From NCBI GenBank assembly GCA_023230825.1, contig JALNWO010000003.1:1-42190 (forward strand): a DNA stretch of 42,190 nt. The letters are read 5' to 3'. The DNA comes from Acholeplasmataceae bacterium (lineage in GTDB: Bacteria > Bacillota_I > Bacilli_A > Acholeplasmatales > Acholeplasmataceae). The position numbers and the translations under genes were made by a program. The notes under the pieces are model-generated. The model saw nothing but the letters and a program-made list of their open reading frames with translations. It had not been told where the DNA came from and did not search any database. This document shows positions 1-40,799 of this stretch, one piece after another (position 1 is the first letter of the stretch; the number at the start of each line of letters is the position of its first letter).

Positions 1-1308
1 GTCTGTGCTGCCGGGCGATGCCGATATTTCTACGTATGCAGAGCCACCCCATCGCCACGTTTTGTTGTCGTTGAGTGTGACGTAAATCTTGCCCGTTTCG
101 CCTGCGCCGGGGAGTGCGCCGAAGTTTGCGTATTCAAGTACATCGTCTACGTAGCTCGGCAGGTTGATAGCGGGCACATGACCACTAGCATCAAGTGGAG
201 CTACGCCAAGTGCTGCACCCTTCTCAGCAGCGTCGATCTTGTTGCCCAGCGCTGCGAGAGTCGCTGAGCTGACCGGCTTATTTGCATCGCTCGTATTGTC
301 TACGTTGTCGAGCCCTACGTCGCCCTTGACTAAAGCCACATTCCCGGAGCCATCCGGACCTTTGCCGGCAACTGTCTTGACTTGTCCTGCATTATCAAGA
401 GCGTCTTCGAGGCCGGGTATATCCGCAATACCGAGCGCCACATTGCCGCTGCCGTCTGGGTCTATCTCGTTGACGCTCGACACCGATCCAGAACCTGGGG
501 CGCCGCGAATATCTAGCGCGTCCCCGACATTGGCAACGACCCCGAGCGGGCCAAGGTATCCTGTAGCAGGCTTCGTACCTTGTCCACCAGTCCAGTCGTC
601 GATGCGTAGGATACTGCGCTCCCCGTCCGCGACCGCTGTGTAAACGGGTGTCCACGCGGTGTTTCCGGTATCACCTTTTTCAAGTACAAAATTCAGTACC
701 TGCTGCGGTGACTCACCCGTTATCGTAACGCTTGGGGTCGCACCAGACTCAACCGTCCCAATCGTAAGTTCATTCGCAGGGCCAGTATCCCCGGTATCCC
801 CTTTACCGCCCCGAATATTGCTAGCATCGGCAATATTGGAAACTAGACCGGATACCCCTATATACCCAGTTGCAGGTTTCGATCCCTGACCACCAGTCCA
901 ATCATACAGCTCTTGGACAACTCGTTCACCGTCGATGGTGGTGCGAATTTGAGGCGACCACCCATGGTTGCCAGTATTACCTTTATCCCCTTGATCACCT
1001 TTTAGACCTTGGGTTCCACGAATATCTACAGCCGCCCCTGCAGTAGGAACAATACCTGATGGGCCAATATATCCAGTAATGGAAGGTTTGGCCCCAGCCC
1101 CACCGACCCAATCAACAATTTGAAGAACTCGGCGATCCCCATTTGTGGTTACTCCAAATACGGGTGACCAACCTTGAGGTCCAACCGCTTCCTCTAGGGC
1201 CAGCAGCCACGCATCGTACATGGAGTTAAGATTGGCCCGATGGCGAGCACCCGGCATCTTATTCCAAAACGCTTCACCATTCTTAGTAACCACAGTAGAG
1301 CTAGCCAT
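1..1308 (-). CDS. Tail fibre protein, collagen-like (partial, C-terminus beyond left edge)
   Basis: Open reading frame of 436 codons with no stop before the window edge; the start ATG follows directly after the stop of the upstream gene. Sequence shows three imperfect units, each with a WxGGxGxKP.xGYIG-type core, joined by collagen-like Gly-X-Y runs (for example KGDQGDKGNTGN and KGDTGDTG). A later part, around residues 335-350, has a GDVGLDNVDNTSDANKPVS motif that is common in phage tail fibres just before the receptor-binding region. The end visible at the window edge has a GKIYVTLNDNKTWRW stretch, a frequent fibre motif. The role would be host recognition at the tail tip. The receptor-binding C-terminus is not in the window. 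Base composition of the left 700 bases looks richer in CG steps than the neighbouring tail genes, which fits fibre exchange between phages. Confidence 0.85.
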   Translation of the reverse strand, partial: MASSTVVTKNGEAFWNKMPGARHRANLNSMYDAWLLALEEAVGPQGWSPVFGVTTNGDRRVLQIVDWVGGAGAKPSITGYIGPSGIVPTAGAAVDIRGTQGLKGDQGDKGNTGNHGWSPQIRTTIDGERVVQELYDWTGGQGSKPATGYIGVSGLVSNIADASNIRGGKGDTGDTGPANELTIGTVESGATPSVTITGESPQQVLNFVLEKGDTGNTAWTPVYTAVADGERSILRIDDWTGGQGTKPATGYLGPLGVVANVGDALDIRGAPGSGSVSSVNEIDPDGSGNVALGIADIPGLEDALDNAGQVKTVAGKGPDGSGNVALVKGDVGLDNVDNTSDANKPVSSATLAALGNKIDAAEKGAALGVAPLDASGHVPAINLPSYVDDVLEYANFGALPGAGETGKIYVTLNDNKTWRWGGSAYVEISASPGSTD

Positions 1309-2127
1309 TTACCATTCCTCAAAGGGAAGCCGAACGTTATCCCAGTCAAACATTTCGTGCGTTATAGTGGGAATGCTTGTCAGCCGACCATACATCATCA
1401 GCTCTTGGGTTAAGGTCAAATCACCTTCGCGGGAATAACCAGATACGAAGTGGCGCTTACCCAACCCTTTCGACATAAGATAGGTTATTTTAGACCGATC
1501 TTCGGGCCGGGTACCCTCTAAATTCAATTCCATGGCCCGAGAAATAGTACCTTGATCGACTCGAAGTTCCCCGGCCGCAGTTCTAACCACATTGCTGGTG
1601 TCATTCGTCCCGGCACTAGTCCCATAAGCAGCTCCTTGAAAGTCCAGTGTTGCCCCAACGATTACCTTGGAAATGTCAAGGAAAGTGGCTTCAGGGTCGC
1701 GCAACTGAATGATTACCCGCCTTGCGGCTATATTTGGAACCCATAGGCAGGATACGGTCGCCCCATACGCGAAGGTGTTTACATTCAGGGCTTGGGAAAA
1801 GTCATAATGTTCAAGCTCTGGTCCTGAAGCCACGTAATGCCAACCGCTATCGTATATGGGTGATCCCCCTGACGCCGTTTCAAATACTTGAACCCGCATT
1901 TCTGAGTCAGACGAGCCATTCCATGCCGGTATTGCTGCGCCATCAACTGTGATATCAATGGGCCATACGAGGGTGATTTGGCCCTCATTAGCTTGGATTC
2001 GGCAGACTTCACCTTTAACGTCAGTTTTGAGCCATTCGGAGCCAAGATCAGCTGCCGTATTGGCGACAGTAATTTCAGCCAAGTTGGCCATATTTTCGCT
2101 GATAATACGAACGTCATGTTCTTTCAT
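1309..2127 (-). CDS. Minor tail protein, probable
   Basis: 272-residue protein between the tip proteins and the fibre in the leftward late operon. Its start ATG lies in an ATGA overlap with the end of a short frame read from the 2.1-2.3 kb interval. Residues 5-32 (RIISENMANLAEITVANTAA) match the tiny upstream gene at 2179-2271, which suggests a shared N-terminal module or a partial duplication. The C-terminus ends in acidic and aromatic residues (LPFEEW). Tail location and length suggest a structural part of the distal tail or a fibre adaptor. No enzymatic motif is visible and I do not recognise a named family. Confidence 0.7.
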   Translation of the reverse strand: MKEHDVRIISENMANLAEITVANTAADLGSEWLKTDVKGEVCRIQANEGQITLVWPIDITVDGAAIPAWNGSSDSEMRVQVFETASGGSPIYDSGWHYVASGPELEHYDFSQALNVNTFAYGATVSCLWVPNIAARRVIIQLRDPEATFLDISKVIVGATLDFQGAAYGTSAGTNDTSNVVRTAAGELRVDQGTISRAMELNLEGTRPEDRSKITYLMSKGLGKRHFVSGYSREGDLTLTQELMMYGRLTSIPTITHEMFDWDNVRLPFEEW

Positions 2128-2178
2128 ACTATTTGCTCTTTAAATAGGCAATACCAACGGGTGCCGTCAATAACTTGT

Positions 2179-3664: not shown

Positions 3665-5109
3665 TAGATCAATACCTCAACGTCGCATCGACCTGACACC
3701 CAATCCACATCAAGGCCAATAATTTGTCCGATCCGTCCCAATTCTAAGCCAAACCGATCACCATAGATATTTGCAGTTTGACCCAATTCCAAATCCAATA
3801 ACTGGGCCATCCCCCTAACTCGCACTATGAACCGGGGAGTTGACCACAGGGATAGCCGGCGGGATGCTTCAAGCTGGGCGTCTACTTTGCGAAGCATCAG
3901 GGTATTAATTTGCTCAGTTTCAGTGCTTATGCGATACTCGGTTGCAACCGCAGAAGCCTTTGCGGTAACCGTCAACCATTCTTGAGCATATAAATCCTGA
4001 TGTTCACTCGGAACTCCTTCGGCAATATTTTGCCTTGGGGTCCATTGCCTACAATACCCCAATCTGACGCCGGCAATGACTTCGGTGGTTCCAGCCAAAT
4101 CTAGGGAACCTTCCTCATAGTCGTTGGGGGTAATGGTGACCGGCACCCCTGGGGCGGGCAGATCAATCTTCAGCAAACGCAACTGACCTGTCCGTGACAT
4201 TACCGCCTGGGCGCCGATGGAACTCGCCAATTCGACGATGCAAGATAGAACAGTATTATGTTCTTCCAAATATAGGCCCACGGGTTGCTGGTTGGCCGCA
4301 TCAAAAGACGCCAAGTTGTCCAAGTCCAAATCGGCCGTAGTGAATCTGCCGGAAACTGGGCCATAACTTGTGGCCAACCTCCGAACAAGCGTCGCCACCG
4401 TATTTTCATATCCACCTGTGGCATCCCCTTGAATGCTGGCGGTCACTATCCCATCAGGTTCAGCGGTAAGTCTAAACCCGCCGGGAACCTGGGTAAACTC
4501 AACAGGTACTCCTCGGTCCCGAACTTCAATGATGCGTTCAAAGGCCGTGGCTGAAAAACGATATTCGTGCACCGCCGCATTGTAAAGCCGCGGAGTAATG
4601 TTATGATTTTCGCCCAAGGGGACTGGGATGAGTCGGTCAGCTTCTTGCCCAGGCCCACCCAATAACTGTTCGGTGACCGCATTATCTAAACGCTCCAATG
4701 GATCAACAAGGGTGACCACAAAAGTATCTCGGCTTTGCTGGGCGCGATCAACTACCCCCTTAGCCACCAACCGGTAATCGTCCCGCGACCAAGTCACATC
4801 GCCGTAGTAGATGCGAATCTCGCGATTCTTCCACACATCCCCATGCCAGCTATCCAAGGAACCATCTTCGTTATGCAATTCAATCGAAGCATGGCTAGCC
4901 ACCGAATACCCGGTCGGGTTTAAGGATTCCCGATATCTGACCCCACCTTTGATCATGGCGTCATACCTGATATTGGGGGTTGGGTCAGTGGGTAGCGTGG
5001 TATACGGTACCACGGATAGCCTACGGATTGGGGAAGTTTCTATTTCCAACAATACCGTTCGCCGGGCTTCGTCACTCCGCAACCATTGGCGATATTCTGC
5101 ATCAGTCAT
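3664..5109 (-). CDS. Tail hub or baseplate-like protein
   Basis: 481-residue protein directly downstream of the tape measure gene (8-base overlap) and upstream of the tip protein (TAATG overlap). In siphoviruses this slot holds the distal tail or tail-hub proteins. The sequence is mainly beta-rich with an N-terminal region (residues 1-160) rich in EL/DG/IYYGD motifs typical of hub folds, and a C-terminal region ending WVSGRCDVEVLI, similar in style to the end of phage hub domains. No peptidase motif is visible. The call rests on gene order and size. A dedicated receptor-binding role is possible but not shown. Confidence 0.7.
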   Translation of the reverse strand: MTDAEYRQWLRSDEARRTVLLEIETSPIRRLSVVPYTTLPTDPTPNIRYDAMIKGGVRYRESLNPTGYSVASHASIELHNEDGSLDSWHGDVWKNREIRIYYGDVTWSRDDYRLVAKGVVDRAQQSRDTFVVTLVDPLERLDNAVTEQLLGGPGQEADRLIPVPLGENHNITPRLYNAAVHEYRFSATAFERIIEVRDRGVPVEFTQVPGGFRLTAEPDGIVTASIQGDATGGYENTVATLVRRLATSYGPVSGRFTTADLDLDNLASFDAANQQPVGLYLEEHNTVLSCIVELASSIGAQAVMSRTGQLRLLKIDLPAPGVPVTITPNDYEEGSLDLAGTTEVIAGVRLGYCRQWTPRQNIAEGVPSEHQDLYAQEWLTVTAKASAVATEYRISTETEQINTLMLRKVDAQLEASRRLSLWSTPRFIVRVRGMAQLLDLELGQTANIYGDRFGLELGRIGQIIGLDVDWVSGRCDVEVLI

Positions 5110-8100
5110 TATACTTTACCCCTTTGCGACCATAAGCCACTTGATTGTTCCTATCACGAGCATTTCGTTGGGTGGATTCGTCCATACCTTTAACCACAAG
5201 GTTTGCGTTCAATTCAGCCGACCGCTTCGTTTCAACAACCTGGGCTTGGCCTTGGATTCGGACTTGTTGGGTCAATTCATCCAACTTGGCCACCACTGCT
5301 TGCATTTCACCATCAGAACGAGTTCCAACCCCATATGTCCCCGCATCAATGGCCCTGGCTTGGGCCGCCGTGTATACGCGCTCGCCAGCATGCAATTTCG
5401 CATGATAATTATCATAGGGGACCCGGGATATTCCGAGCGCGTGGGAGCCGTCTACGATGGGGATGAAGGGCATCAAATGGGAAGCGATCATAGCCGGAAG
5501 GGCATTCAAGGTGGTCGCGATATCGTGAAGCCGGATTGTATCAAGCCCCATGCTTTCCAGCAAGGATACTTGACGCCCCATTGTGGTTACTTCATGCTGA
5601 TATTGGGCGTCTAAAGCCGCTTGAGCCTGCATTGCGAAGTTATGAAGTTCTTGCAACTGTTCAAGCTGAGACTGGCTTATATTGGTGGCTTTTTCCAACT
5701 GGACAATTTGTCGCTCAGAATCACTTAAAGTACTCCCGGCCAAGTCACCAACCATGGCTGTCAAACGGTGATAGGCCGAACGATAATCTTCGCCAGATGC
5801 ACCGTATTCCCTCCACAAGGTCAAAGCATTTTGCAACGAGTTTTGAACTCGACCAAGAGCCGCCTCGTCTCCACCCCTAGCCGCCGAAACCAACTGGTAT
5901 AGTTCTTGCTCAGCATTCGTTACCTTTTGACCCAGGGTATATGGGGCCAAATCACTCGATTCCAAAGACCTAAGATAATATTGCAATGAGTTAGCGATAT
6001 CCCGCAAGCGAACCGCGTTGATTAGTTCTTCGCGGGCGGCTTCCTGTTCGGTGACAATTCGCTGGGTTACAATTTCAGTCAGCTGCTCCGCTAAAGTGAG
6101 TTGCTTGGCGTAATCTGGACCAAAATATCTACCTTCCTCAGCTCCAAACTCATTGTAGTGCCTACGGGCAAACCCCTCAAGGTCCATACCCCAATTATCT
6201 TGGCGAAACGCTAGCATCAAGTCACCATAGGCCTGCATATAATTTTGCTCGGCCGAGGCACTACTTATACCTCTCAATGCTGACCACAATTCTTGTTCTC
6301 GCTGAGGTGCAAAAGTTTGATCTAACCCCAGTTGTTGGGCGAGCTGATCTGCCAAAGACCCCGCCGAATTTCGAGCTTGCAGGGTGTTTTGCACGCCGGT
6401 ACTAACTTCTCGCAGGCGATCCAGGGCCAAACCGAAGTGATCCACTACTTCTTCAATGATATCGCCGGTATCTTCAACAACTTCATTCAACCTAACCCAT
6501 TCGGTTGCGACCGCATGGAACTCGCCCGATATGTTAATCATTTGCGCGTAGAGCCTGGCCCCGGCTTCAGTTGTCGGGTCTATGCTTTCCAACAGCTCGC
6601 GGAAAGACAACACCGACTGATCCAACCCTTTGGTCATATCAGGCATCAGTTGCCCAATGTTTTCAAAAGATTTGTTTAAGTTGCCAATCCGCCATTCAAA
6701 TTGCTCTTGCTCAGTATGGAAGTTTTGGAAGTAGCCGCTCAAAGTAGCCGTAAAGGCGTCCAGACCGCCCCCGGCGTCCAGCATGGCAGCCGCCGCATCA
6801 AAAGACAGACCTTTGAGCCGCTCAAAGGGCATCACATCCAATGCCGAAATAAGCCCATTGACTTCCAGTATGATCATTTCAAACGTGGATATCAGGTTCA
6901 GAGCCGCTTCAGCACTTAGGCTGCGAATATCTACATCCCGAATCAAAGCCGCCAACATGGGAGGTAGTTGATCAACTTGAAGCTGCAACGCTTGCAAGAT
7001 GGACATTTGAATATCCGTCTGCAACCGAGTAAACATATCTTCTTCGGACCAACCACCGAAGCCTCGAATGGTCATATCCGAAGCGTGACCAATGCCAAAA
7101 TCTAAGCTTTGGTTGCCAACTCTAAGAGTTCCACCTGATGCCACGCCTTGCCGGTCGCCTTTGATGGACGATTCCATTATCGCGTAGAACGAATCAATGG
7201 CCGCATCTACTCCGACTTGGCTAAATAAGCGATTGGCAGCAGTTACACTTGCTTCAGCCAATTGGCGGGCAGCCTCTTGGGACTCGTCCGATTGACGGTC
7301 ATCAAAAGCAGTTCTATCCCACACCCCGCCAACCAACTCAGCAGTAGACCGCTGACCGCGGCGGGTAGTAGGCTCCCGGTCAAAAAACCCATCAACCAGA
7401 CCGCCAACCATACCGCCGACCATGGTGCCGATTCCAGGCAAAATATAAGTACCAATTGCCGAGCCGATGGCCGAACCGTATTGGCCTTGGACCGCCGACA
7501 ATATGGCACCACCATACCCTAAGATAGAGCCCATGTTCCCAGCCGCCCAGGTGCCGGCCTTCCCTGCCGTTGAAGATAAGGCCGAACTATGGGAATTGAT
7601 CATAGCCCCAATAGCATCCCCACCCGAAGCCGCGGCCATATTCCCGGCATTGACCGCCGCTGATCCCATGGTATTGGTAAGGCCGGATGAGAAATTCTGC
7701 AAGGCTCGGGAACCGATGTGGTCACCAACCCAATCCAACGCGTTACCCATCGTTTGGGTTCCACCCGCGCGGGTTATGCCGCTTCCTGGGGCACCCCTAA
7801 TAGAGCTGGTCCTACCTTGCTCATCAACTTGGAACCCCAATACCTCACCAAGCATGTTGGCCATCGGCAGGGTTACATTTTGACGAATAACTAATCGAGC
7901 CAGATCATCCAGTATGGAATCCACCATATTTTTGAATGAAAGCTCGCCCGTTCTCGCAAACTTAACAAAAGCATCTTCGGCCTCTCGAATACCATTGACC
8001 ACAAGGTTTTCGGACAGATCGCTGAGGTTTGAAAATTCCTCTTGGACTTTTAGCAAGCCCCGCAAGAACCCACCTTGGATGGTTTGGTCAGTTTCCAATA

Positions 8101-9808
8101 TTTCAATCTTAAACTCTCGGAGCTTTTGATTGTATTGGTCAACATTTATATCTCCAAGCATGAACTCTTCGTTCAAAGCCTGAAGGTTGAGTCGGTAGTT
8201 TTCTTGAGGGCCGAATATTTCATCCCATATTTGACCTTGGCGCTCCAAGACTTGCTGGTATTCAAGAAGCGCGTAAAGGCTCTCACCTTCTTCCAATGTG
8301 AGTTCACGCTTCATATCTGCTTCATATCCGAGCAACTTAGCGTGTCGTTCGCGAGCCATACCCATTACATGAAGTAGGTTTATTTCGGCAATTAGCTCAC
8401 TCTCAATTTGGGCGAAAGTTTTGCGCTTACCACCCTTCCCATCCGCACTTTCGGGGGTGAAAGTTGATGGGCCACTAGGTAGCAGGTCACCAATGAGTTT
8501 CGCCCTGTCCATGAGGCTTTGGGAATAACCTTGCACAAAAGCCATCGCAGCCCGTTCACCAGCTTTTTTTGGTGCTTCCAACTCATCAACCCGGCCTAAA
8601 CTAAAATTGGTTGGAAACAGTTCCCTGCCGGCAATATCGTTGATGATCGAATTTAACTTTTTTGCCCAACCTTCCAAACTAGATAACGAGAGATTGATAC
8701 CTTTAATGGTTAAATTGGCAAACCAGGCGGGAAAGTCGTTCCAGGCCTCCTTAATATAAGCCTTGGCCCCATCCCAGGTGGCCATAAACTTATCAATGAA
8801 GGTCACATATTTATTGGCTTCCCTTAGAGCTTCATCCATCTTAGTCGACATTTGGCCAAGAGTGACGATGGCCCCAGCGGCCGCGGTCGCAATGGCGGTG
8901 ATTGGATTCCGCATCAAGGCGATTCGTAAGAGATTCAATCCGCTTATTACGGCCCCAATAGCCGCCCGCCCAGCCAGGACCGCCAATAGGGGAATTAAAG
9001 CCGCTACGCCGGTCGTGAAGTGATTCAAGTTGTCGACCGCGAAAGCCAAAGTTAGGCCCAACCCTTTTCCTATTTGTTCACTAATTGGGCCAAGGGTACG
9101 CATGGCTTGATCACGAAGAACAGTCCAGAATTGTGAAAAGGTCGGGTTTAGCTTGGAAAACAGAGTAGTCAGTTTACCTTCCATTTCTTGGAAGGCTTCC
9201 ACAATGACTTTGGGGGTCAGCTTACCTTCCTTACCCCATTCTTTCATTTCAAACCGATTAATTTGCAACTTCTCGGCAATTACGTCCGCGATGAACGGTA
9301 GCTGCTCAAGGACAGAACGCAATTCATCCCCGTCTAGCCGACCTTTGGCCAAACCTTGGGAAAATTGAATCAAGCCGGCATGGGCTTCTTGAGCAGTCAC
9401 ACCTGAAAGCTGAACTGCCTGATTGACCCCTTTGACAAAGTTTATCAGCTCTCGTTGGGAATAACCTAATTCCTTAGAGGAAAGCGCCACTCGCGCATAT
9501 AAGGTAGCCGTCGCCTCAAATGAAGTTCGAGTATCTCTGGCCACATTAAACATTTCTTGTGTGAGCCGAGTCAAGTTTGCAGTATCACCCGCCACCAATT
9601 TGAGCCGATTGCTCATATTGGTATAAACGTCATTCATCCGCATGAACTCGCGGGCGCTCAATACTCCAACTAGTCCCCTGAAAGCATTTGCCAACAAATC
9701 AACCTGGCCCTGAGCGCGGACCGCCCCCCGACCAATATCATTTATCCCCCGTTGGACTACCTGTCCACCGCGTTCGGTGATTACAATGTCAATGCGTTCT
9801 GTGGTCAT
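5102..9808 (-). CDS. Tape measure protein
   Basis: 1568 residues, the longest gene in the window, placed after the tail chaperones as in most siphoviruses. Residues about 55-190 match the tape-measure N-terminal domain in style (FMRMNDVYTNMSNRLKLVAG, then GLAKGRLDGDELRSVLEQLP). Hydrophobic segments lie near residues 268-318 (IPLLAVLAGRAAIGAVISG). A glycine/alanine-rich region spans roughly 730-820 (GSAIGTYILPGIGTMVGGMV). Long coiled-coil stretches fill the rest. By the usual rule of about 1.5 angstrom per residue the tail would be near 235 nm long, which is an inference. The protein would be ejected with the DNA and the hydrophobic parts may insert into the host membrane. The start ATG overlaps the end of the upstream gene by four bases. 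Confidence 0.95.
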   Translation of the reverse strand: MTTERIDIVITERGGQVVQRGINDIGRGAVRAQGQVDLLANAFRGLVGVLSAREFMRMNDVYTNMSNRLKLVAGDTANLTRLTQEMFNVARDTRTSFEATATLYARVALSSKELGYSQRELINFVKGVNQAVQLSGVTAQEAHAGLIQFSQGLAKGRLDGDELRSVLEQLPFIADVIAEKLQINRFEMKEWGKEGKLTPKVIVEAFQEMEGKLTTLFSKLNPTFSQFWTVLRDQAMRTLGPISEQIGKGLGLTLAFAVDNLNHFTTGVAALIPLLAVLAGRAAIGAVISGLNLLRIALMRNPITAIATAAAGAIVTLGQMSTKMDEALREANKYVTFIDKFMATWDGAKAYIKEAWNDFPAWFANLTIKGINLSLSSLEGWAKKLNSIINDIAGRELFPTNFSLGRVDELEAPKKAGERAAMAFVQGYSQSLMDRAKLIGDLLPSGPSTFTPESADGKGGKRKTFAQIESELIAEINLLHVMGMARERHAKLLGYEADMKRELTLEEGESLYALLEYQQVLERQGQIWDEIFGPQENYRLNLQALNEEFMLGDINVDQYNQKLREFKIEILETDQTIQGGFLRGLLKVQEEFSNLSDLSENLVVNGIREAEDAFVKFARTGELSFKNMVDSILDDLARLVIRQNVTLPMANMLGEVLGFQVDEQGRTSSIRGAPGSGITRAGGTQTMGNALDWVGDHIGSRALQNFSSGLTNTMGSAAVNAGNMAAASGGDAIGAMINSHSSALSSTAGKAGTWAAGNMGSILGYGGAILSAVQGQYGSAIGSAIGTYILPGIGTMVGGMVGGLVDGFFDREPTTRRGQRSTAELVGGVWDRTAFDDRQSDESQEAARQLAEASVTAANRLFSQVGVDAAIDSFYAIMESSIKGDRQGVASGGTLRVGNQSLDFGIGHASDMTIRGFGGWSEEDMFTRLQTDIQMSILQALQLQVDQLPPMLAALIRDVDIRSLSAEAALNLISTFEMIILEVNGLISALDVMPFERLKGLSFDAAAAMLDAGGGLDAFTATLSGYFQNFHTEQEQFEWRIGNLNKSFENIGQLMPDMTKGLDQSVLSFRELLESIDPTTEAGARLYAQMINISGEFHAVATEWVRLNEVVEDTGDIIEEVVDHFGLALDRLREVSTGVQNTLQARNSAGSLADQLAQQLGLDQTFAPQREQELWSALRGISSASAEQNYMQAYGDLMLAFRQDNWGMDLEGFARRHYNEFGAEEGRYFGPDYAKQLTLAEQLTEIVTQRIVTEQEAAREELINAVRLRDIANSLQYYLRSLESSDLAPYTLGQKVTNAEQELYQLVSAARGGDEAALGRVQNSLQNALTLWREYGASGEDYRSAYHRLTAMVGDLAGSTLSDSERQIVQLEKATNISQSQLEQLQELHNFAMQAQAALDAQYQHEVTTMGRQVSLLESMGLDTIRLHDIATTLNALPAMIASHLMPFIPIVDGSHALGISRVPYDNYHAKLHAGERVYTAAQARAIDAGTYGVGTRSDGEMQAVVAKLDELTQQVRIQGQAQVVETKRSAELNANLVVKGMDESTQRNARDRNNQVAYGRKGVKYND

Positions 9809-10236: not shown

Positions 10237-11001
10237 CTTTTTTGTCCCTCACGTCTTGAGCTGCAACATCCATTGCCCGCAAGTGGTGGACCAGAGCTTC
10301 ATATTGGTCAGGTTCCAATTCATAGTGATGCGCATAATCTTTTATCGCAACCCAAGAAATGGGCCCACCCATCCCGCCCCGGTCCCCGCTCAAGTCCCAA
10401 TAGGCGTTGTAATAAAGCTCTAACCCCGGTAGAAGTTCAGGTGCATTTTTAATAAATTCCGGAAATGGGGTTCGTTCCCGTATGCACTGCTGTATTACTC
10501 GCTGTTCGCTTTCACCATGCTTCAGCGTGTAAATCAGAACTTCTTTTAGTTTTTTGCCTCGTCTTCCAGTTCAGCTTTGCGGTATAGCTGAATATCGTTG
10601 GCATCAGAAATGATTTGAAGAAGCAAATCAGGCAAGCGCGTGAACAAATTGGTCAATTCTTCCTTGTTCGCTTGAACTTCGTCACCGCTTTCCAACACAA
10701 TGACGTTTTTCCAATTTGGCACTTCCTCAGTTCCAACATTGGTTTCAAACTTGAGAATGACCGAATCCAAATATACTTTGGCGATCACATCACGTTGAAC
10801 CTTATCTGACAGGCCGCCCGGAATTTTCGCAGCCTGTCGATGCGGACGCATGTGAATTTCGTGATATTTGGCATATCGTTCATTTCGGCCACCGGCCCTG
10901 GCCAGCAAAACCCGGATACCACCGGGATATTCGACATAGACCCCATGGATTTCTTTATGGGAATCTGTGCCAAATACTGACCACATTGTATTACGCTGCA
11001 T
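10220..11001 (-). CDS. Tail assembly chaperone, long form made by -1 frameshift (G-T type)
   Basis: The 151-residue upstream frame ends ...GAG GCA AAA AAC TAA. A -1 slip on A AAA AAC (10549-10555) continues with CTA AAA GAA and reads another 109 residues (LKEVLIYTLKHGESEQRVI...) to TGA at 10220, giving a fusion of about 260 residues. The extension has no good start of its own and fills what would otherwise be a 309-base gap. This arrangement just before the tape measure gene is the conserved lambda G/G-T organisation. The long form is expected to bind both tape measure and tube subunits during tail assembly and not to be part of the virion. Confidence 0.88.
10546..11001 (-). CDS. Tail assembly chaperone, short form (G type)
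   Basis: 151-residue protein, starting MQRNTMWSVFGTDSHKEIHG and ending ELEDEAKN, directly downstream of the tail tube gene. It is the unshifted product of the chaperone pair. The residues before the stop are acidic and the last two codons form the slippery site. The start region contains the sequence TGGTCA, one copy of the dispersed motif, encoding Trp-Ser. Confidence 0.85.
   Translation of the reverse strand: MQRNTMWSVFGTDSHKEIHGVYVEYPGGIRVLLARAGGRNERYAKYHEIHMRPHRQAAKIPGGLSDKVQRDVIAKVYLDSVILKFETNVGTEEVPNWKNVIVLESGDEVQANKEELTNLFTRLPDLLLQIISDANDIQLYRKAELEDEAKN
10549..10555 (-). promoter_or_regulatory. -1 ribosomal frameshift slippery heptamer
   Basis: On the coding strand the sequence is A AAA AAC with zero-frame codons AAA AAC, followed at once by the zero-frame stop TAA. 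It is one of the most efficient -1 heptamers in Gram-negative bacteria. The ratio of short to long chaperone would be set here. Confidence 0.88.
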
Positions 11002-27900: not shown

Positions 27901-28110
27901 TTAAATATCCAGTTGCTTACCCGATAAAAATTCGTAAAGGCGTTCGACCTTATCTACCGAGGGATTACGAATATGTCCGCGTTTACCCAGGCCATATTTA
28001 ATGGACATTAGCCAACTGTGGTTAACATGAGCCCCTACGCATATTTCTGGAATGGTTTTGTCGGTCTGCTCAAGCAGCTCAAGAGTTCGGTTCCATAACT
28101 TCGAAGACAT
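27901..28110 (-). CDS. Cro/CI-like helix-turn-helix regulator
   Basis: 69 residues. The order TIPEICVGAHVNHSWLMSIKYG gives a compact helix-turn-helix (residues about 19-40), followed by a NPSVDKVERLYEFLSG helix typical of Cro-like repressors. It is the first gene of the leftward unit with the primase and is divergent from the rightward early genes at 28256. It probably controls the divergent promoters between them. No integrase accompanies it, so a lysogeny role is not implied. Confidence 0.8.
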   Translation of the reverse strand: MSSKLWNRTLELLEQTDKTIPEICVGAHVNHSWLMSIKYGLGKRGHIRNPSVDKVERLYEFLSGKQLDI

Positions 28111-29141: not shown

Positions 29142-29184
29142 CCACAATTTGGGCTGGCTCCGGCCGGCCCTATAGGGGAACATT

Positions 29185-29328
29185 ATGGAAATTCTACTTC
29201 TTATCGTCGGAATCCTCCTGGCCATCGTTTTATCGGTTCTATGGATTGTGCTCCCAATTGTGGTTATTAGCATGAACCGCAAGCTAGATCGAATGATAGA
29301 CTTATTAAGCCTGGCGGTCCGCAAATGA
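29185..29328 (+). CDS. Small membrane protein
   Basis: 47 residues, MEILLLIVGILLAIVLSVLW..., with one or two hydrophobic segments and a basic end. The ribosome site is TAGGGGAACATT. It forms an ATGA overlap with the next gene. Function unknown. Confidence 0.7.
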   Translation: MEILLLIVGILLAIVLSVLWIVLPIVVISMNRKLDRMIDLLSLAVRK

Positions 29329-30867: not shown

Positions 30868-31551
30868 ATGTCTGTTCAATGGAGCAACACCAATAAGGCC
30901 GACCTAGATGGTCTGAATATAATGGTCTATGGGCCACCAGGGGTTGGAAAAACCCGTCTTATTTCCACTCTACCTGCTCCATTGATCATCAGTTCTGAGC
31001 GGGGAAACCTCACCTTAAAAGGATTTGATATTCCGGTAGCCTATATTCAAAACGGCCAAGACCTGAAAACAGTATATGACTTTTTGAAAAGCGACGGTGG
31101 TAAAACAATAAAGTCAGTGGCTCTGGATTCGGTATCTGATATCGCTGAAACAATGTTGGGTATTGCCAAGCGATCCAATAATGATGTTCGTCAGGCCTAT
31201 GGGCAGATTGCCGAACTGATCATAGATTGGATGAAGAAGTTTCGCGATTTACCCCACGTACATAAATACTTCGTGGCACAGATGGCCCCGTTCAAGGACG
31301 AAGTAACCGGCCAAATTAAATGGGGGCCGGACTTTCCAGGGAAACAAATTGGTAAATCGGCCCCATATATATTTGACCTACTCTTGAGGGCCGGAGTGCA
31401 CGTTGATGAAAAAGGTGAGCGGACATATTATCTTCAAACCAAGGCCGATCAATTTTATGACGCCAAGGACCGGTCAGACGCACTCGACGCTTACGAACAG
31501 TCTGATTTTAACATCATCCTCAACAAAGTAGCAGGAGTTAAGCAACCATGA
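30868..31551 (+). CDS. Sak4-like RecA-type recombinase (AAA_24)
   Basis: 227 residues. Walker A is YGPPGVGKTR (21-30) and the Walker B-like strand is SVALDSVSDI near 86-95. Later comes KYFVAQMAPFKDEVTGQIKWGPDFPGK. This is the pattern of Sak4 and related phage RecA-fold proteins, which anneal single strands. It is coupled to a DUF669 gene in an ATGA overlap; in phage HK620 the cognate SSB stimulates the Sak4 annealing activity, so the pairing is meaningful. Confidence 0.85.
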   Translation: MSVQWSNTNKADLDGLNIMVYGPPGVGKTRLISTLPAPLIISSERGNLTLKGFDIPVAYIQNGQDLKTVYDFLKSDGGKTIKSVALDSVSDIAETMLGIAKRSNNDVRQAYGQIAELIIDWMKKFRDLPHVHKYFVAQMAPFKDEVTGQIKWGPDFPGKQIGKSAPYIFDLLLRAGVHVDEKGERTYYLQTKADQFYDAKDRSDALDAYEQSDFNIILNKVAGVKQP

Positions 31552-32216
31552 GTACATTTTCCCTACCAATGACTTGGACCGCCAACCCGGATCAGGTGTT
31601 GGGTGATTTCACACCTATTCCAGCGGGGTGGTACCCCGGGTCCATCGTTGAAATGGAATACAAACCGAAGAAGGATAAACCTGACGAAGGTTACCTTCAA
31701 CTGACTGTGGAAATTGACGAAGGTGACCACAAGGGTCGCCAGCTTTTTGACAACCTGAATATGTGGGACCAAAGCGAAAAGGCCCAACAATACGTTCAGC
31801 GAAAGGTCAATACTCTTTGCATGTCGACTGGTCAACACCAGATCACGGACTTGAATCAGCTGATGAATAACCGGCTCTTGATCCAAGTGAAACTGCGGGA
31901 AGCCCGCGAAGTGGTGGATGAAAACACCGGGGAAACCAAGAAATACGACGCCCAAAATCAAATTAGCAACTACAAAGCCATCCCCACAGGTGGCGCTGCG
32001 ACTCCACCTGCTACCCAAGCTCAACCGACCCAACCGCCTCAGACTCAATCGGCCCCGGCCCAATCCGGGCCTCCTGCAACACCGACTCCACCCCCGGCCC
32101 AGCAAACCGCGCCGGCCCAGCCGCCGGCACAGACTCAGGCCCAAGCTGCACCCGCTCAAACTCCACCCCCAGCCGCCGCGACCGGATCAGTCCCACCTTG
32201 GCTCCAAGGTAAGTAA
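31548..32216 (+). CDS. DUF669-type single-strand DNA-binding protein
   Basis: 222 residues. Residues 1-145 match the DUF669 form (FTPIPAGWYPGSIVEMEYKPKKD, GDHKGRQLFDNLNMWDQSEKAQQYVQRK). The C-terminal 70 residues are a Pro/Gln/Ala low-complexity tail ending VPPWLQGK. This tail lacks the acidic tip normal in bacterial SSB. Partner of the Sak4-like protein upstream. Confidence 0.82.
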   Translation: MSTFSLPMTWTANPDQVLGDFTPIPAGWYPGSIVEMEYKPKKDKPDEGYLQLTVEIDEGDHKGRQLFDNLNMWDQSEKAQQYVQRKVNTLCMSTGQHQITDLNQLMNNRLLIQVKLREAREVVDENTGETKKYDAQNQISNYKAIPTGGAATPPATQAQPTQPPQTQSAPAQSGPPATPTPPPAQQTAPAQPPAQTQAQAAPAQTPPPAAATGSVPPWLQGK

Positions 32217-32280: not shown

Positions 32281-33186
32281 ATGATCTATTTGGCAACAAA
32301 GACTCTGGATGCCATGGCGGCTGCAATTGAGGTAGACCAAGGGGCGTTATATCGGCGATACTTGGGGGAGGCAATTCACGATGTTACAGATGCCTATGAC
32401 GATAAGCCACCTGGGTTCCGTTCCCACTTCGGTATCTCAACATCGGGCAAACCTTGTTCGCGGGCGCTCTGGTATGACTGGCGGTGGGTTGAGCTAAAGC
32501 GATTTGGTGACCGGATGTTGCGATTATTCAATCGGGGTCACCTGGAAGAAGCCCGATTTGTAGCAATGATTCGCGCGGCAGGAATGACAATCTACCAAGC
32601 CGACGATCAAAAGAAGCAATACAGGGTCAGCCTGCTAGGTGGACATTATGGATCGGCCCTTGATGGTGTGGTCATTGGTGTCCCTGACCTACCTGATCCC
32701 CAAATGCCATGTTTGACGGAGTTCAAGACCCATAATGAAAAGTCATTCAATTATTTGGTAGCCCATGGGTTATTCAAAGCCAAGCATCAACATTATGTCC
32801 AAATGCAACAATGTATGGGATATTATAAGTTGGATGCTGGATTATATTTGGCGGTATGTAAGAATACTGACAGGCTCTACGGTGAACTAATTGGATATGA
32901 TCAGTCCACGGACGAATATTATCAGGACCGGTCTAAACGTATCATTTTCACCCAATCTATACCTGAAAAATTCAGCGAATATCCGGATACATTTGAATGC
33001 AAATTTTGTGACCACAAGATGCGGTGCCACTATGGGCAGGGTGAGGTGGCTCGCAATTGCCGAACGTGCCACCATGGGCGCCCCCTACCGACCGGCGAAT
33101 GGGTTTGTGACCAAACCGGTGAAGTCCTAGATAAATCGGCCCAGGAGGCCGGATGTAATCATTACGTAAAACATCGCGACCTATGA
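32281..33186 (+). CDS. Cas4/RecB-like PD-(D/E)XK nuclease with iron-sulfur cysteines
   Basis: 301 residues. Catalytic residues are D128 (SALDGVV) and E147-x-K149 (CLTEFKTH), with H87 and E89 upstream (NRGHLEEARF). Cysteines C59, C240, C243 and C249 (FECKFCDHKMRC) fit a 4Fe-4S cluster. A further C260, C263, C276 group near the end suggests a second metal site. It is coupled to the helicase. Like phage Cas4-type nucleases it probably resects DNA ends for the annealing recombinase. Confidence 0.85.
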   Translation: MIYLATKTLDAMAAAIEVDQGALYRRYLGEAIHDVTDAYDDKPPGFRSHFGISTSGKPCSRALWYDWRWVELKRFGDRMLRLFNRGHLEEARFVAMIRAAGMTIYQADDQKKQYRVSLLGGHYGSALDGVVIGVPDLPDPQMPCLTEFKTHNEKSFNYLVAHGLFKAKHQHYVQMQQCMGYYKLDAGLYLAVCKNTDRLYGELIGYDQSTDEYYQDRSKRIIFTQSIPEKFSEYPDTFECKFCDHKMRCHYGQGEVARNCRTCHHGRPLPTGEWVCDQTGEVLDKSAQEAGCNHYVKHRDL

Positions 33187-34868
33187 TCGTTCCACGTGAC
33201 TACCAATCCTTTGCTCTGGATGCCTGGCTTAATTACGTGGCCGATGGTAAGACCGCCCCACTCTTATTGTATCCGACCGGAGTAGGTAAGTCGGTTATTC
33301 TGGCCCTGATAATCGCCCATTGCTTGAAATCCTGGCCCGGCTTACGAGCTATGATCCTGACTCACAGTAAAGAGTTGATACAGCAGGATTATGATAAGTT
33401 GATGGACTATTGGCCAGAAGCGGTTGCCGGTATTTATTGTGCAGGGTTGAAGCGTCAGGAATACTATAAGCCGATCACCGTGGGTTCGATTCAGACGGTT
33501 TATAATGTACCTGAGTTATTCGCCCACGTTGACCTACTGTTCATTGATGAAGCCCACTTGATCAGCCTGAAAGAACAGTCAATGTATCGGTCATTCATAG
33601 AGAAGTTGAAAGAGCGCAACCCAAATCTTGTGGTTACTGGCTTGACTGCGACTGGTTGGCGTTCGGGGCAAGGTATGTTGCATTGGGGTGAAAATGCCCT
33701 GTTTGACGGAATTGCAGTGGATGCCTGTAGTCTGGAAGCCTTCAATTGGTTTATTGATGAGGGGTATCTTGTACCCCCAGTGGCCCAACGCACCAAGTTT
33801 CAATATGATGTTTCCAAAGTAAAAACTACGGCGGGGGAGTTCAACCAAAAAGAACTGGATGCGGCTGTAAATATAACCACAGTTAATGAACAAGTAGTTT
33901 TGTTGGCCTGCGAGGCGTTTGAGGACCGGAACCATGGGCTCACTTTCTGCACCGGAACTAGTCACGTAGAGAACATTGCGGCGATATATAATCATTATGG
34001 GGTTAGAACTACTTTTGTACATACCAAAGTTCCTGGTAAAGAACGAGATAGGCGTATTGAAGCCTATCTAGCCGGCGATTACCAAATGATGGTAAACAAT
34101 GGTATTTTGACTACGGGGTTTGACTTCCCTGCATTGGATTATATCGCCATGATGAAAGCAACGCGGTCATCAAGCCTATGGGTCCAAATGCTAGGGCGCG
34201 GTACCCGCCCACTATATCACCCGGGGTTTGATCTGTCCACCCGGGATGGCCGATTAGCCGCCATTATGGCGGGCAGCAAACCCGACTGCTTAGTTTCTGA
34301 CTTTGCAAAAAACACCGAACGACTTGGTCCGGTCAATGATCCGGTTATCCCAGTACCGCGAGGTATGAAAAAGCCAGGGGAAGCCCCTATCCGGATATGT
34401 GATCAGTGTGGCACCTACAATCATGCCTCGGCCCCATTATGTATAGCCTGCGGCTTTGAATTTCCCAGGCGAGAAAAGCTTCAAGCGATGACCACAGGTA
34501 AAGCGTTGGTCAAGCGTAAAAAGATTCCAGACCCCGTTATAATTGAAGAACCCCAAATCCTTGACTTCCCGGTGGATCACGTGACTTACAAGTACTACCG
34601 GAAAAGCGAAGAACATATTCCATCCGTTCGGGTTTCATACAAATGCGGAATACGTACATTTGATGAATGGGTGTTTCTGGATAAAGGGTCACCGTTTCAA
34701 GGGAAAGGGCGTAATTGGTGGATTCAACGGGCTGAATGCTCGCCGGCCGAGATACCAGAAACCGCTAGTCAAGCCTTGACCCAAACTGATATACTTCGTA
34801 TACCGACTTCACTCAAAGTCCAAGTGAATACCAAACATCCCAGGATAACCGAATATGTCTACAAATGA
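33183..34868 (+). CDS. SF2 DEAH helicase with C-terminal zinc finger
   Basis: 561 residues. Motif I is PTGVGKS (31-37), motif II DEAH (122-125), motif III-like TAT (in GLTATGW), and motif VI MLGRGTR near residue 338-344. CDQCGTYNHASAPLCIACGF around 404-423 is a four-cysteine zinc ribbon. The remaining C-terminal part (TYKYYRKSEE... WVFLDKGSPF) may bind DNA. Coupled to the nuclease, it likely unwinds or migrates branched DNA. Confidence 0.88.
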   Translation: MIVPRDYQSFALDAWLNYVADGKTAPLLLYPTGVGKSVILALIIAHCLKSWPGLRAMILTHSKELIQQDYDKLMDYWPEAVAGIYCAGLKRQEYYKPITVGSIQTVYNVPELFAHVDLLFIDEAHLISLKEQSMYRSFIEKLKERNPNLVVTGLTATGWRSGQGMLHWGENALFDGIAVDACSLEAFNWFIDEGYLVPPVAQRTKFQYDVSKVKTTAGEFNQKELDAAVNITTVNEQVVLLACEAFEDRNHGLTFCTGTSHVENIAAIYNHYGVRTTFVHTKVPGKERDRRIEAYLAGDYQMMVNNGILTTGFDFPALDYIAMMKATRSSSLWVQMLGRGTRPLYHPGFDLSTRDGRLAAIMAGSKPDCLVSDFAKNTERLGPVNDPVIPVPRGMKKPGEAPIRICDQCGTYNHASAPLCIACGFEFPRREKLQAMTTGKALVKRKKIPDPVIIEEPQILDFPVDHVTYKYYRKSEEHIPSVRVSYKCGIRTFDEWVFLDKGSPFQGKGRNWWIQRAECSPAEIPETASQALTQTDILRIPTSLKVQVNTKHPRITEYVYK

Positions 34869-35813: not shown

Positions 35814-36177
35814 TGACCACATTGTTGAGTTGAATGTTGATTTGCTTCGGCAGCGGAGTCGAGTTGGTATTAAGAAATATGGGGTTACATTGGAGCAGTC
35901 GGGGTTAAGTCAAAAACAGTTCATGCGGCACGCCCTAGAAGAAGTCCTTGATCTGGCCAATTATCTGCAAGGCGCCCTACAATCGCAGGATCGCGAGGAT
36001 GCTGAGCGGTTGGACTGGCTGGCTGAGCAAGAAGCGCAAATTCAGAGCCTTGCCCTGGCGAATGGCACAAGATACCGACTCGGTTGGCCAGATGACGGGG
36101 AGGCACAATCAGAGTGGTTCAAGAGCCCGCGAGAAGCCGTCGACCACGCTCGCAGCATTGAGGGGGGTGGGGAATGA
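35803..36177 (+). CDS. MazG-like / nucleotide pyrophosphohydrolase-type protein
   Basis: 124 residues with a GTG start overlapping the previous stop by eleven bases. Residues 16-57 (RQRSRVGIKKYGVTLEQSGL... RHALEEVLDLANYLQGAL) have the MazG-like helix pattern seen in phage dNTP-handling proteins, with E46, E47 and D50 as possible metal ligands. The C-terminal RLDWLAEQ part is also common in phages. It may clear or tune nucleotides. Confidence 0.7.
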   Translation: MKSDDHIVELNVDLLRQRSRVGIKKYGVTLEQSGLSQKQFMRHALEEVLDLANYLQGALQSQDREDAERLDWLAEQEAQIQSLALANGTRYRLGWPDDGEAQSEWFKSPREAVDHARSIEGGGE

Positions 36178-37174: not shown

Positions 37175-37178
37175 GGTC

Positions 37179-37402: not shown

Positions 37403-37444
37403 CCAGTCCATAACCACAATTTCAATTCTCAGGAGTATATGAAA

Positions 37445-38020: not shown

Positions 38021-38743
38021 ATGTCAATCAATAATCAACCTATATCAAAGCGTGAGCTGTGCGACGATGGTTCGTTGGTCGTACACTCCATGTTTTATAC
38101 CATCCAGGGTGAAGGCCCATTTGCCGGGGACCCCGCCTTATTCGTACGTCTGGCTGGTTGCAATCTGCAATGCCCCATGTGCGATACCGAATACACCCAA
38201 GGGGCCGAACGCCATAGTATCAACGATCTTATGCGCATGACCATCGCGCATCTGACCCGGGCCGGCGTATACGACCAAGGCCGACCAAGGGAACCCCTTG
38301 TGGTTATCACTGGGGGCGAACCTTTCCGTCAGAATATCAGTGAGTATGTGCGCCGACTATTACAAGGTGGTTGCCGAGTTCAAATCGAAACCAATGGAAC
38401 TCTATACATTGATGAGTTTCCATGGGGCCATCCACGATTGACCACGGTATGCTCACCCAAGGCCGGGAAGGTCAACCCCCATTTACAGCCCCATATAAAC
38501 GCCTACAAGTATGTGGTCAGCAGCCTGAATACCGACCCCGAAGATGGGTTGCCAACTAGTGCGTTGGGGCTTCCGGGAAAACCGGCCCGACCCCATAACG
38601 ATCGTGTTCTGGTCTACGTTAATCCGCTGGACTCTCAAGACCCGGAAAGCAATCGCCGAAATCTTGAAACTACCGCCCAAGTGGCTATCAGGTATGGTTA
38701 TCGCATGGGCGTTCAACTCCATAAACAAATTGGGTATGAATAA
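38021..38743 (+). CDS. queE: 7-carboxy-7-deazaguanine synthase
   Basis: 240 residues. C47-x3-C51-x2-C54 (GCNLQCPMCDT) is the radical SAM 4Fe-4S motif, preceded by FYTIQGEGPFAG and followed by ITGGEPF (97-102), both QueE hallmarks. It converts 6-carboxytetrahydropterin to 7-carboxy-7-deazaguanine using S-adenosylmethionine. The stop shares a base with the next ATG. First gene of the deazaguanine operon. Confidence 0.93.
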   Translation: MSINNQPISKRELCDDGSLVVHSMFYTIQGEGPFAGDPALFVRLAGCNLQCPMCDTEYTQGAERHSINDLMRMTIAHLTRAGVYDQGRPREPLVVITGGEPFRQNISEYVRRLLQGGCRVQIETNGTLYIDEFPWGHPRLTTVCSPKAGKVNPHLQPHINAYKYVVSSLNTDPEDGLPTSALGLPGKPARPHNDRVLVYVNPLDSQDPESNRRNLETTAQVAIRYGYRMGVQLHKQIGYE

Positions 38744-38940: not shown

Positions 38941-39743
38941 TAGTGTTGTCGGGCGGTCAGGATTCGACCACTTGCCTTTATCTCGCCAAGCGACGTTATG
39001 ATGAAATACATGCGGTCACCTTCGACTACGGTCAGCGCCATAAAATCGAATTGGAAGCGGCTAAGAAAATTGCACACATGGCCGGGGTCGCTTCGCACGA
39101 ATTTATTAAGATTGGTGACCACATTCTTGAATCAACCTCGCCGCTGGTAACCTCGAATCGGCTCGAACAATATGTGGATGCCGACTCACTCCCCGGTGGG
39201 ATTGAAAAGACGTTCGTTCCGATGCGCAACCAGTTATTCCTGACGATCGCCGCCAATCGAGCGGTAGCCCGAGGTTGCAATGATATCTATACCGGGGTGA
39301 GTCAGGCGGATTATGGGGGATACCCTGACTGCCGCAATAAGTTCATCTTGGCATTGGAAGAAGCTACTAACCTTGGAACCTTCGACGATGCTACTGGCGG
39401 GGGAATCATTGTTCAGACCCCACTGATGAATATGTCTAAAGCGCAAACCGTTCAAATGGCCCTTAAATTGCCCGGATGCTATTCAGCCTTGGCCCATTCC
39501 CATACGGCCTATGATGGCCAATATCCGCCTCGTGGCAAGGATCATGCGAGCATCCTAAGAGCTAAGGGTTTCGAAGAAGCCGGGGTTCCTGATCCGCTCG
39601 TACTGCGGGCAGTTTATGGGGACGAAGTGATGCATCCAGATGAAATACCGGATACGGATAACTACTCAGAAGAAGTAGTCAAATTTTACTGGATGACCCT
39701 AGTGGATGATATGGAGCACAATGATGCCTTACCAATCAACTAA
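38925..39743 (+). CDS. queC: 7-cyano-7-deazaguanine (preQ0) synthase
   Basis: 272 residues. PP-loop SGGQDS is at 9-14. Other QueC words are DYGQRH, VPMRNQ, GVSQADYGGYPDCR and LRAKGFEEAGVPDP. It converts 7-carboxy-7-deazaguanine to preQ0 with ATP and ammonia. The usual C-terminal zinc cluster (C, then CGxCxxC before the LRAKGF segment) is broken: C185 is kept, but the CGxCxxC site reads RGKDHAS (203-209). H191, H193 and H207 are nearby. No amidotransferase domain is fused to it. Confidence 0.93.
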   Translation: MSKALVVLSGGQDSTTCLYLAKRRYDEIHAVTFDYGQRHKIELEAAKKIAHMAGVASHEFIKIGDHILESTSPLVTSNRLEQYVDADSLPGGIEKTFVPMRNQLFLTIAANRAVARGCNDIYTGVSQADYGGYPDCRNKFILALEEATNLGTFDDATGGGIIVQTPLMNMSKAQTVQMALKLPGCYSALAHSHTAYDGQYPPRGKDHASILRAKGFEEAGVPDPLVLRAVYGDEVMHPDEIPDTDNYSEEVVKFYWMTLVDDMEHNDALPIN

Positions 39744-40197
39744 GCAATACGGGTTCGACCTAGGGCTCTCTTGCGCCTTTCGCCAGTGGCGGGCTGATTC
39801 GCATTGCAAGTATATTCATGGGTATGCGCTGGCCTTCAAATTCACATTTGAGGCATCCAAACTTGACGAACGCAACTGGGTCGTAGACTTTGGCGGGTTG
39901 AAATCACTCAAGGCCATTCTTGAAGAAAACTTTGACCACAAGTTATTGGTGGCCGGGGATGATCCGAATCTCGACCTATATATGAAGCTGCATGAAGCGG
40001 GCGTTGCTCAGGTAGTCATGTTCCCAGATGGTGTCGGTTGTGAGAAGATGGCCGAATATGTTTTTCACGTAGCCGACCAATGGCTTTGGGATGCCGGTTT
40101 CGCCCCTCGCTGCCGCCTGGTATCGGTTGAGGTGAAAGAGCACGGGGCCAATAGCGCTATTTATGCAAACCCATTGAATGTATTGAGCAACCTATGA
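39721..40197 (+). CDS. queD: 6-carboxytetrahydropterin synthase-like protein
   Basis: 158 residues from the ATG at 39721 after GGAG; the next ATG is equally possible. FRQWRADSHCKYIHGYALAFKF is the active-site region with Cys29 as in QueD. The usual zinc set (one His plus HGH) is changed: HGH reads HGY, and the first His position in the FxAAH word is not obvious, while H28 is nearby. DFGGLKSLKAILEENFDHKLL is conserved. It should make 6-carboxytetrahydropterin from dihydroneopterin triphosphate. It overlaps queC by 23 bases. Confidence 0.88.
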   Translation: MMPYQSTKQYGFDLGLSCAFRQWRADSHCKYIHGYALAFKFTFEASKLDERNWVVDFGGLKSLKAILEENFDHKLLVAGDDPNLDLYMKLHEAGVAQVVMFPDGVGCEKMAEYVFHVADQWLWDAGFAPRCRLVSVEVKEHGANSAIYANPLNVLSNL

Positions 40198-40799
40198 AAC
40201 AGAAACAACTAAGCCTGGCTGAATGTTTTGATTCCCGCCGCGACAAAGGGTTGACCCTTGACTTTACAGTGGCCCAGATGCTTGAACAGCTTGATCCGGC
40301 CCCTAGCCGAGAAGGGTTGCACGAGACACCCGCCCGAGTAGCGAAGGCTTGGAAATTCTGGACCAAGGGGTACGATGAAGACCCGGCCGAAATTCTAAAA
40401 GTGTTCGAAGATGGAGCTTCAGACTATGATGAAATGGTATCTGTTGTTAACATTCCAGTTTATAGTCATTGTGAGCATCATCTTGCACCTATATTTGGAA
40501 CTGCGACGGTTGCTTACATTCCGAACGGCCGTATTGTGGGGCTCTCTAAACTTAGTCGTCTCGTTGATTGCTTTGCTCGCCGCCTACAAGTTCAAGAACG
40601 GTTGACGGTTCAAATCGCCGACGCCCTCGACCGGGAGTTAGAACCAAGAGGGGTGGGCGTATGGATCAAGGCTCGCCACATGTGCATGGAAAGTAGGGGA
40701 ATCTGCCAGCAAGGGCACTACACGGTGACCACAGCTTTGCGCGGGGCTATTAAAGAGGATAGTCGGGCAAGGGCTGAATTTTTAGCCCTGACGAAGTAA
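40194..40799 (+). CDS. folE: GTP cyclohydrolase I
   Basis: 201 residues. Zinc ligands C93, H96 (SHCEHHLAPI) and C164 (ARHMCMESRG) are in place. Other family words are HETPARVAKAW, GRIVGLSKLSRLVD and FARRLQVQERLT. It makes dihydroneopterin triphosphate, the first step of deazaguanine synthesis. ATGA overlap with queD. The enzyme could raise flux beyond what host FolE gives. Confidence 0.95.
   Translation: MKQKQLSLAECFDSRRDKGLTLDFTVAQMLEQLDPAPSREGLHETPARVAKAWKFWTKGYDEDPAEILKVFEDGASDYDEMVSVVNIPVYSHCEHHLAPIFGTATVAYIPNGRIVGLSKLSRLVDCFARRLQVQERLTVQIADALDRELEPRGVGVWIKARHMCMESRGICQQGHYTVTTALRGAIKEDSRARAEFLALTK

Follow-up and report, generated by a model that had tools for sequence, protein, structure and literature searches.

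A strand-specific ladder of an 8-base word as the probable template recognition site of a phage primase-polymerase

Primase recognition sites are known as a class, and are usually too short for a genome-scale layout to show. The gp4 primase-helicase of phage T7, which carries out sequence-specific priming of the lagging strand, reads 5'-GTC / (T/G)GGTC-3'; it differs in its short, frequent sites and in primase type from the system described here. That system was found in a window of 42,190 nucleotides (the whole stretch analysed: assembly GCA_023230825.1, contig JALNWO010000003.1, positions 1 to 42,190, filed under an Acholeplasmataceae bacterium), which is probably a partial siphophage contig. 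Throughout it recurs the asymmetric word TRACCACA, the opposite strand of which reads 5'-TGTGGTYA-3'. These sites are very probably genome-wide template recognition sites of the primase-polymerase (PrimPol) encoded in the window, and would set lagging-strand starts on both strands.

The closest described enzyme is the PrimPol of phage NrS-1. In two published accounts its template sites are given as 5'-TTTGGTTA-3' and GTG(G/A), with GTGG the more efficient in vitro (PMC8718748, PMC7102993), and the enzyme is described as the replicative polymerase of the phage, whereas relatives of the window encode a separate polymerase and clamp and carry tens of sites in strand ladders. A 5'-GTG-3' site is attributed to the PrimPol ORF904 of pRN1 (as cited in PMC8718748). 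ORF904 resembles the present system in its PrimPol fold, template-reading helix-bundle domain and GTG core, and differs in having a three-base site. We know of no genome-wide ladder for it. NrS-1 is likened to the window by a homologous PrimPol with a helix-bundle domain, and its TTTGGTTA is matched at 7 of 8 bases by TGTGGTTA, a word of the related phages described below that contains GTGG. The initial annotation of the window, made from its letters alone, could point to no phage in which the motif was in use and overlooked the NrS-1 recognition sequence. TTTGGTTA itself is found once in the window and 0-1 times in each of six relatives counted. Its sole copy in NrS-1 lies at 17198, 147 bp past the primase gene, and is possibly an origin; the most enriched 9-mer of that genome is a repeated GTTACACTT (11 copies).

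The window has 46 copies of TRACCACA (31 on the plus and 15 on the minus strand), against a mean of 2.13 (standard deviation 1.38, largest 6) in 100 dinucleotide shuffles and an expectation of 2.2 (1.45 + 0.78) under an order-3 Markov model. The enrichment reported in the initial annotation is therefore real, its exact counts (42 copies, 30 and 12 by orientation) being too low. The sites are listed below by the strand that carries TRACCACA, the template TGTGGTYA lying on the other.

1144..1151, minus strand, site
1287..1294, plus strand, site
1584..1591, plus strand, site
3841..3848, plus strand, site
4713..4720, plus strand, site
5191..5198, plus strand, site
5582..5589, minus strand, site
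6281..6288, plus strand, site
7717..7724, minus strand, site
7996..8003, plus strand, site
9800..9807, minus strand, site
10978..10985, plus strand, site
11144..11151, plus strand, site
11990..11997, plus strand, site
13402..13409, plus strand, site
14059..14066, minus strand, site
14534..14541, plus strand, site
16346..16353, minus strand, site
17399..17406, plus strand, site
18391..18398, plus strand, site
18881..18888, minus strand, site
20768..20775, plus strand, site
21884..21891, plus strand, site
24150..24157, plus strand, site
24659..24666, plus strand, site
25502..25509, minus strand, site
25941..25948, plus strand, site
26058..26065, minus strand, site
27265..27272, plus strand, site
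27549..27556, plus strand, site
28017..28024, minus strand, site
29139..29146, plus strand, site
29259..29266, minus strand, site
31724..31731, plus strand, site
32667..32674, minus strand, site
33009..33016, plus strand, site
33629..33636, minus strand, site
33874..33881, plus strand, site
34489..34496, plus strand, site
35814..35821, plus strand, site
37411..37418, plus strand, site
38299..38306, minus strand, site
38512..38519, minus strand, site
39116..39123, plus strand, site
39933..39940, plus strand, site
40726..40733, plus strand, site

The gaps of 8.0-11.0 and 14.5-17.4 kb that had been noted in this series hold minus-orientation sites, at 9800 and 16346. The earlier remark that the next base is never C was almost right (A 25, T 12, G 8, C 1, the single C being at site 32667). 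Under Markov models of orders 1-3 no 8-mers are more enriched in the window than TGACCACA (28 copies) and TAACCACA (18), and the word is sharply defined: words one mismatch away occur about as often as expected, the biggest excesses being TAACCCCA (6 vs 1.7) and TGGCCACA (5 vs 2.05). The 35 open reading frames (ORFs) taken as genes make up 78% of the window and entirely contain 35 of the 46 sites. Synonymous-codon shuffling of these ORFs leaves a mean of 3.3 sites (at most 10 in 1000 shuffles), which excludes protein coding as the cause, as had been argued. A higher-order Markov model had been named as a possible way of accounting for the copies, and at maximal order TGACCACA and TAACCACA do lie outside the 12 highest-ranked 8-mers, as might be expected if the word arose by chance, from codon use or as an artefact of composition. 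However, such a model takes its expectation from 7-mers of the motif itself (all 28 copies of GACCACA fall within TGACCACA) and so is no test of enrichment. The artefact explanation is already refuted by the shuffle, synonymous and multi-locus nulls (46 vs 2.1, 35 vs 3.3, and 4.2-fold over 134 loci or 4.1-fold over 118 clusters, see below), and we give it a negligible probability.

The proposed reader of the motif is the following gene.

25507..27897, minus strand, PrimPol primase-helicase of 796 aa, its N-terminus homologous to the NrS-1 PrimPol by sequence and predicted fold

Its N-terminus can be aligned with the NrS-1 enzyme (E-value 3e-20), so that sequence comparison relates it to a primase with a near-identical published site. 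The layout comprises a catalytic domain (residues ~1-165), a helix-bundle domain (~175-282), which is the template-binding domain in NrS-1-type PrimPols, and a C-terminal helicase region. The catalytic motifs of archaeo-eukaryotic primases (DxD, sxH and an acidic third motif) are present; D75, D77 and H113 are invariant across 19 and across 26 sequences, and E132 is nearly invariant or invariant. No TOPRIM Pfam match was found in this protein. Phage records with a match to this primase number 434, and among named phages the best one (57% identity) comes from the section of the Achromobacter phage ART record that resembles BcepGomr. A primase site was among the candidates put forward in the initial annotation and is the reading favoured here. 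A passing fork would expose 5'-TGTGGTYA-3' as single strand, the helix-bundle domain would bind this template, and the PrimPol would initiate a primer immediately 5' of the word. Both strands would thus carry, in their sequence, the points at which lagging-strand pieces begin.

Further phages that encode a homologous primase have a word of the form TGTGG-N-Y-A as their top 8-mer or among the leading ones, with varying letters 6-7. CAjan, Pa-X and PSTCR7 carry TGTGGTTA (41, 39 and 32 copies), VpKK5 carries TGTGGCCA and TGTGGTCA (19 and 18), BcepGomr TGTGGTCA and TGTGGCTA (14 and 13) and Me-ZS1 TGTGGACA (13). TGTGGGCA is the word of phages 73, KL1, PaMx42, Axy18, FtMidnight and Eidolon. JenK1 (TGTGGTCA/TTA), EC151, MiCath and AB_SZL7 likewise have words of this form; VPv64 and ply2008005c show a weaker signal of the same kind, and RHEph04 a looser CTGTGG. 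The BcepGomr primase aligns over the N-terminal PrimPol and helix-bundle domains only, and the word is retained. SE4, which has a diverged primase, carries the shifted word TTGTGGGT instead (31 vs 1.4) and offers a second specificity class for comparison. No enriched TGTGG-type word was found in Lactobacillus phage A2. The residue at position R274 of the helix-bundle domain, replaced by Phe where letter 6 is G, corresponds to letter 6 in 121 of 123 loci, a lead towards a specificity residue that draws on just 2 supported independent contrasts.

Some other words were seen in these and neighbouring phages. RHEph04 contains CCCAGGT 38 times (5.3 expected), with a 27:11 bias towards one orientation, and Me-ZS1 contains TTATGAAC and TATGAACA, 11 copies each and unexplained. 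GTGG is strikingly rare in Septimatrevirus-like phages: phage 73 has 62 copies on both strands of 43 kb, 39 of them inside TGTGG, against 360 in the window. BcepNazgul was rejected as a relative, being classed in Casjensviridae and carrying another word; its dispersed AGTAACTT/AAGTAACT number 16 and 15 (0.26 expected), and the phage is annotated with a ParB-like protein.

The record of phage ART (MH746817.1) seems to hold two phages, with two terminases and two capsid genes, and the motif is confined to 43850-95343. In this related part TRACCACA is the top 8-mer (48 copies); the rest of the record has 2 copies and is unenriched. The mean protein identity to the window over aligned genes is 58%, and of the 25 window sites whose codons can be aligned with ART, 8 occupy the same place there. 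The enrichment is thus not lost at diverged loci, as the initial annotation had allowed it might be. Density is kept while sites move, which fits a site serving at any position of suitable spacing.

Phages of one host species carry different words, so the word is not set by the host. Three words are found among phages of E. coli K-12/MG1655 (TGTGGTTA in CAjan, TGTGGTCA/TTA in JenK1 and TGTGGGCA in FtMidnight), and the P. aeruginosa phages 73 and Pa-X also differ. The Achromobacter phages ART and Axy18 have different words too, but come from different host species.

The dependence of the word on PrimPol carriage was assessed in loci from viral-contig searches with primase alignments, reference genomes included, after ten duplicates and loci below 8 kb had been dropped. 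Enzymes were counted as full-length where the profile span exceeded 500 positions, and loci as clearly enriched at an at least threefold excess with a log-likelihood ratio of at least 4. In the 134 loci with a full-length enzyme TGTGGNYA was found 1985 times against 476.5 expected (4.2-fold, some phages being counted twice); 129 loci were above expectation and 100 clearly enriched. Taking one locus per near-identical cluster (n=118) gave 1790 against 441.1 (4.1-fold), with 113 above expectation and 86 clearly so. Three loci with an intermediate match span had 25 against 6.7. No excess was present in 15 loci of at least 8 kb that had been found by the Mcat25 helicase and had a helicase match and no PrimPol match (64 vs 56.6); 8 of these hold all four genes of the recombination module.

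That module lies to the right of the primase in the window:

30868..31551, plus strand, Sak4-like annealing protein, context and not a reader
31548..32216, plus strand, single-stranded-DNA-binding protein, context
32281..33186, plus strand, Cas4-domain exonuclease, context and not a reader
33183..34868, plus strand, superfamily 2 (SF2) DNA helicase, context and not a reader

Its presence bears on a second explanation, in which the word would be a Chi-like recombination signal for the phage pair of Cas4-domain exonuclease and SF2 helicase or for host RecBCD/AddAB. E. coli Chi (GCTGGTGG) is likewise an asymmetric, over-represented 8-mer; the word here occurs about once per kb, and its letter-6 class tracks the Cas4 tree well (11 changes). 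Chi is host-determined, however, whereas phages recorded on one host species here bear different words, which tells against the host Chi suggested in the initial annotation. Moreover, the helicase-bearing pieces lacking a PrimPol match show no excess (Mcat25 being the only whole record among the 15), and Chi sites do not need the regular per-strand spacing described below. We regard a Chi-like role as distinctly improbable.

The layout of sites was compared across 22 genomes using, for each, the words with at least 5 copies and a threefold excess (its own word for SE4). With both strands pooled, spacing is more regular than expected at random (p<0.05) in 15 of the 22; the genomes are related, so this and the other layout p-values are non-independent. 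Per-strand spacing was evaluated in 19 genomes, Me-ZS1, Axy18 and RHEph04 being left out for few sites. When strand labels were shuffled with positions kept, spacing was over-regular (p<0.05) in 15 of the 19, including the window (p=0.0067), and none of 4000 shuffles was as even as VpKK5 (coefficients of variation 0.26 and 0.29). Of 1140 control 6-mers from those genomes put through this test, 2.5% reached p<0.05. Neighbouring sites of one strand were on average 1.3-4.5 kb apart for the terminase strand and 2.1-7.7 kb apart for the opposite one (window ~1.3 and ~2.7 kb).

The terminase strand is richer in sites in 22 of 22 genomes (412:258), and both strands are used in all of them; here the terminase strand of JenK1 was inferred from structural genes, and VPv64 and ply2008005c are near-identical. 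Composition explains part of this polarity (null 0.54 vs observed 0.61, p=1.4e-4, 21 genomes). Should the sites serve in lagging-strand priming, the dominant fork would move in the direction of late transcription. Within the window the plus excess is present in both gene blocks, 16:7 below 22.3 kb and 10:5 above 28.1 kb (16:5 and 10:4 in the initial annotation), which supports its view of a DNA-level site that follows the DNA strand rather than transcription. G is rare 5' of the site in the window (1/46) and in ART (0/48); a purine-start rule was rejected, this pattern not being general over the 22 genomes.

A strand-biased, dispersed, short asymmetric word also brings to mind the localized nick signals known from phage tf and from LUZ24-like phages such as Rembedalsseter (WACTRTGAC and TACTRTGMC), and site-specific nicking leaving single-strand interruptions had been among the first candidates. 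Those motifs, a different word from ours, lie on one strand only, with the nick shown experimentally (PMC3517423, PMC11780129). Here both strands are used, 31:15 in the window, and the word follows PrimPol presence; we consider nicking very improbable.

A number of observations weigh against the sites being a PrimPol-read ladder. NrS-1 provides no precedent for one, having a single TTTGGTTA in 37 kb, and its TGTGGNYA excess is modest (21 vs 7.2). Five of the 134 full-length loci are without enrichment. In 42 loci with an N-terminal match only, the excess is small (227 vs 148.8, 3 of 42 clearly enriched), hence belonging to the enzyme superfamily does not by itself predict a ladder, and 12 loci with a weak, distant PrimPol match are in between (54 vs 30.5). 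The helicase-only loci, Mcat25 excepted, come from pieces no longer than 21 kb, and a primase could lie beyond the piece. Pooled spacing is not over-regular (p at least 0.05) in 7 of 22 genomes, and per-strand spacing misses 0.05 in 4 of 19 (Pa-X, EC151, KL1 and PaMx42). Polarity is significant alone (p<0.05) in only 2 of 22, the window and MiCath, and is 24:23 in CAjan. Pyrimidines do not generally precede the site (5' base A 223, T 204, C 139 and G 104 over 22 genomes), which speaks against a simple rule of purine starts. Finally, on trees of 80 taxa the letter-6 class changes 11 times for Cas4, 16 for Sak4, 14 for the helicase and 13 for the primase; the fit to the other genes is about as good, and phylogeny does not single out the primase.

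A further candidate reader adjoins the primase:

27901..28110, minus strand, ORF of 69 aa directly upstream of the primase, helix-turn-helix (HTH)-like by eye, rival reader

Such a small protein, or another phage protein binding double-stranded DNA, could occupy the sites, with a role in regulation, in organising the DNA or in replication loading. A hidden Markov model (HMM) built from ten upstream ORFs, a mixed set that makes the count generous, matches beside the primase in 109 of the 134 full-length loci. By eye and by HMM, however, the upstream ORFs do not look like a single family: that of JenK1 is not HTH-like, those of CAjan and MiCath are unlike the window's, and EC151 has no match, and these four phages nonetheless carry TGTGGTTA and/or TGTGGTCA. 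The word is also asymmetric and regularly spaced per strand, beyond any regularity of duplex positions, and a binder of double-stranded DNA needs neither. This explanation seems to us quite improbable, and recognition by the PrimPol remains the reading that we prefer.

The window otherwise contains leftward head, packaging and tail genes, followed by the primase-helicase, the rightward recombination block and Que-type genes:

38021-41764, Que-type (7-deazaguanine) cluster: radical SAM, QueC, QueD-like (PTPS) and GTP cyclohydrolase I

The last ORF of the cluster is in the position of a TGT-like gene and is without a Pfam match. A modification-related sequence had been among the suggestions at the outset; a link to 7-deazaguanine modification was rejected, since the word is also present in phages 73, KL1, FtMidnight and AB_SZL7, whose annotations list no Que genes. 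In ART the Que genes are followed by a polymerase and a clamp, neither of which turned up in the window ORFs searched. The first and last 20-50 bases of the window do not recur, and its GC skew roughly tracks gene direction and reveals no origin. Three window proteins (23541-24149, 35068-35673 and 37439-37936) match one unknown family, phrog_7864, possibly a mobile or repeated domain.

Among the open-licence matches listed, we recognised no description of a sparse, even, strand-specific ladder of an 8-base word common to a phage group; exact matches to the word there belonged to primers or to work on topics other than phage priming. It is reasonably likely that a large group of tailed phages encodes its Okazaki starts as an evenly spaced ladder of PrimPol words on both strands. 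Spacing would then be under selection while individual sites turn over, letters 6-7 would co-evolve with the helix-bundle domain, and the fixed excess on the late-gene (terminase) strand would report the strand copied discontinuously more often. Because the word is long, predicted start points can be listed beforehand for many phages, those of laboratory E. coli among them. This opens direct tests of Okazaki start positions, length limits, the co-evolution of primase and site, and fork direction, and primase specificity and replication layout may thus be readable from phage sequence alone.

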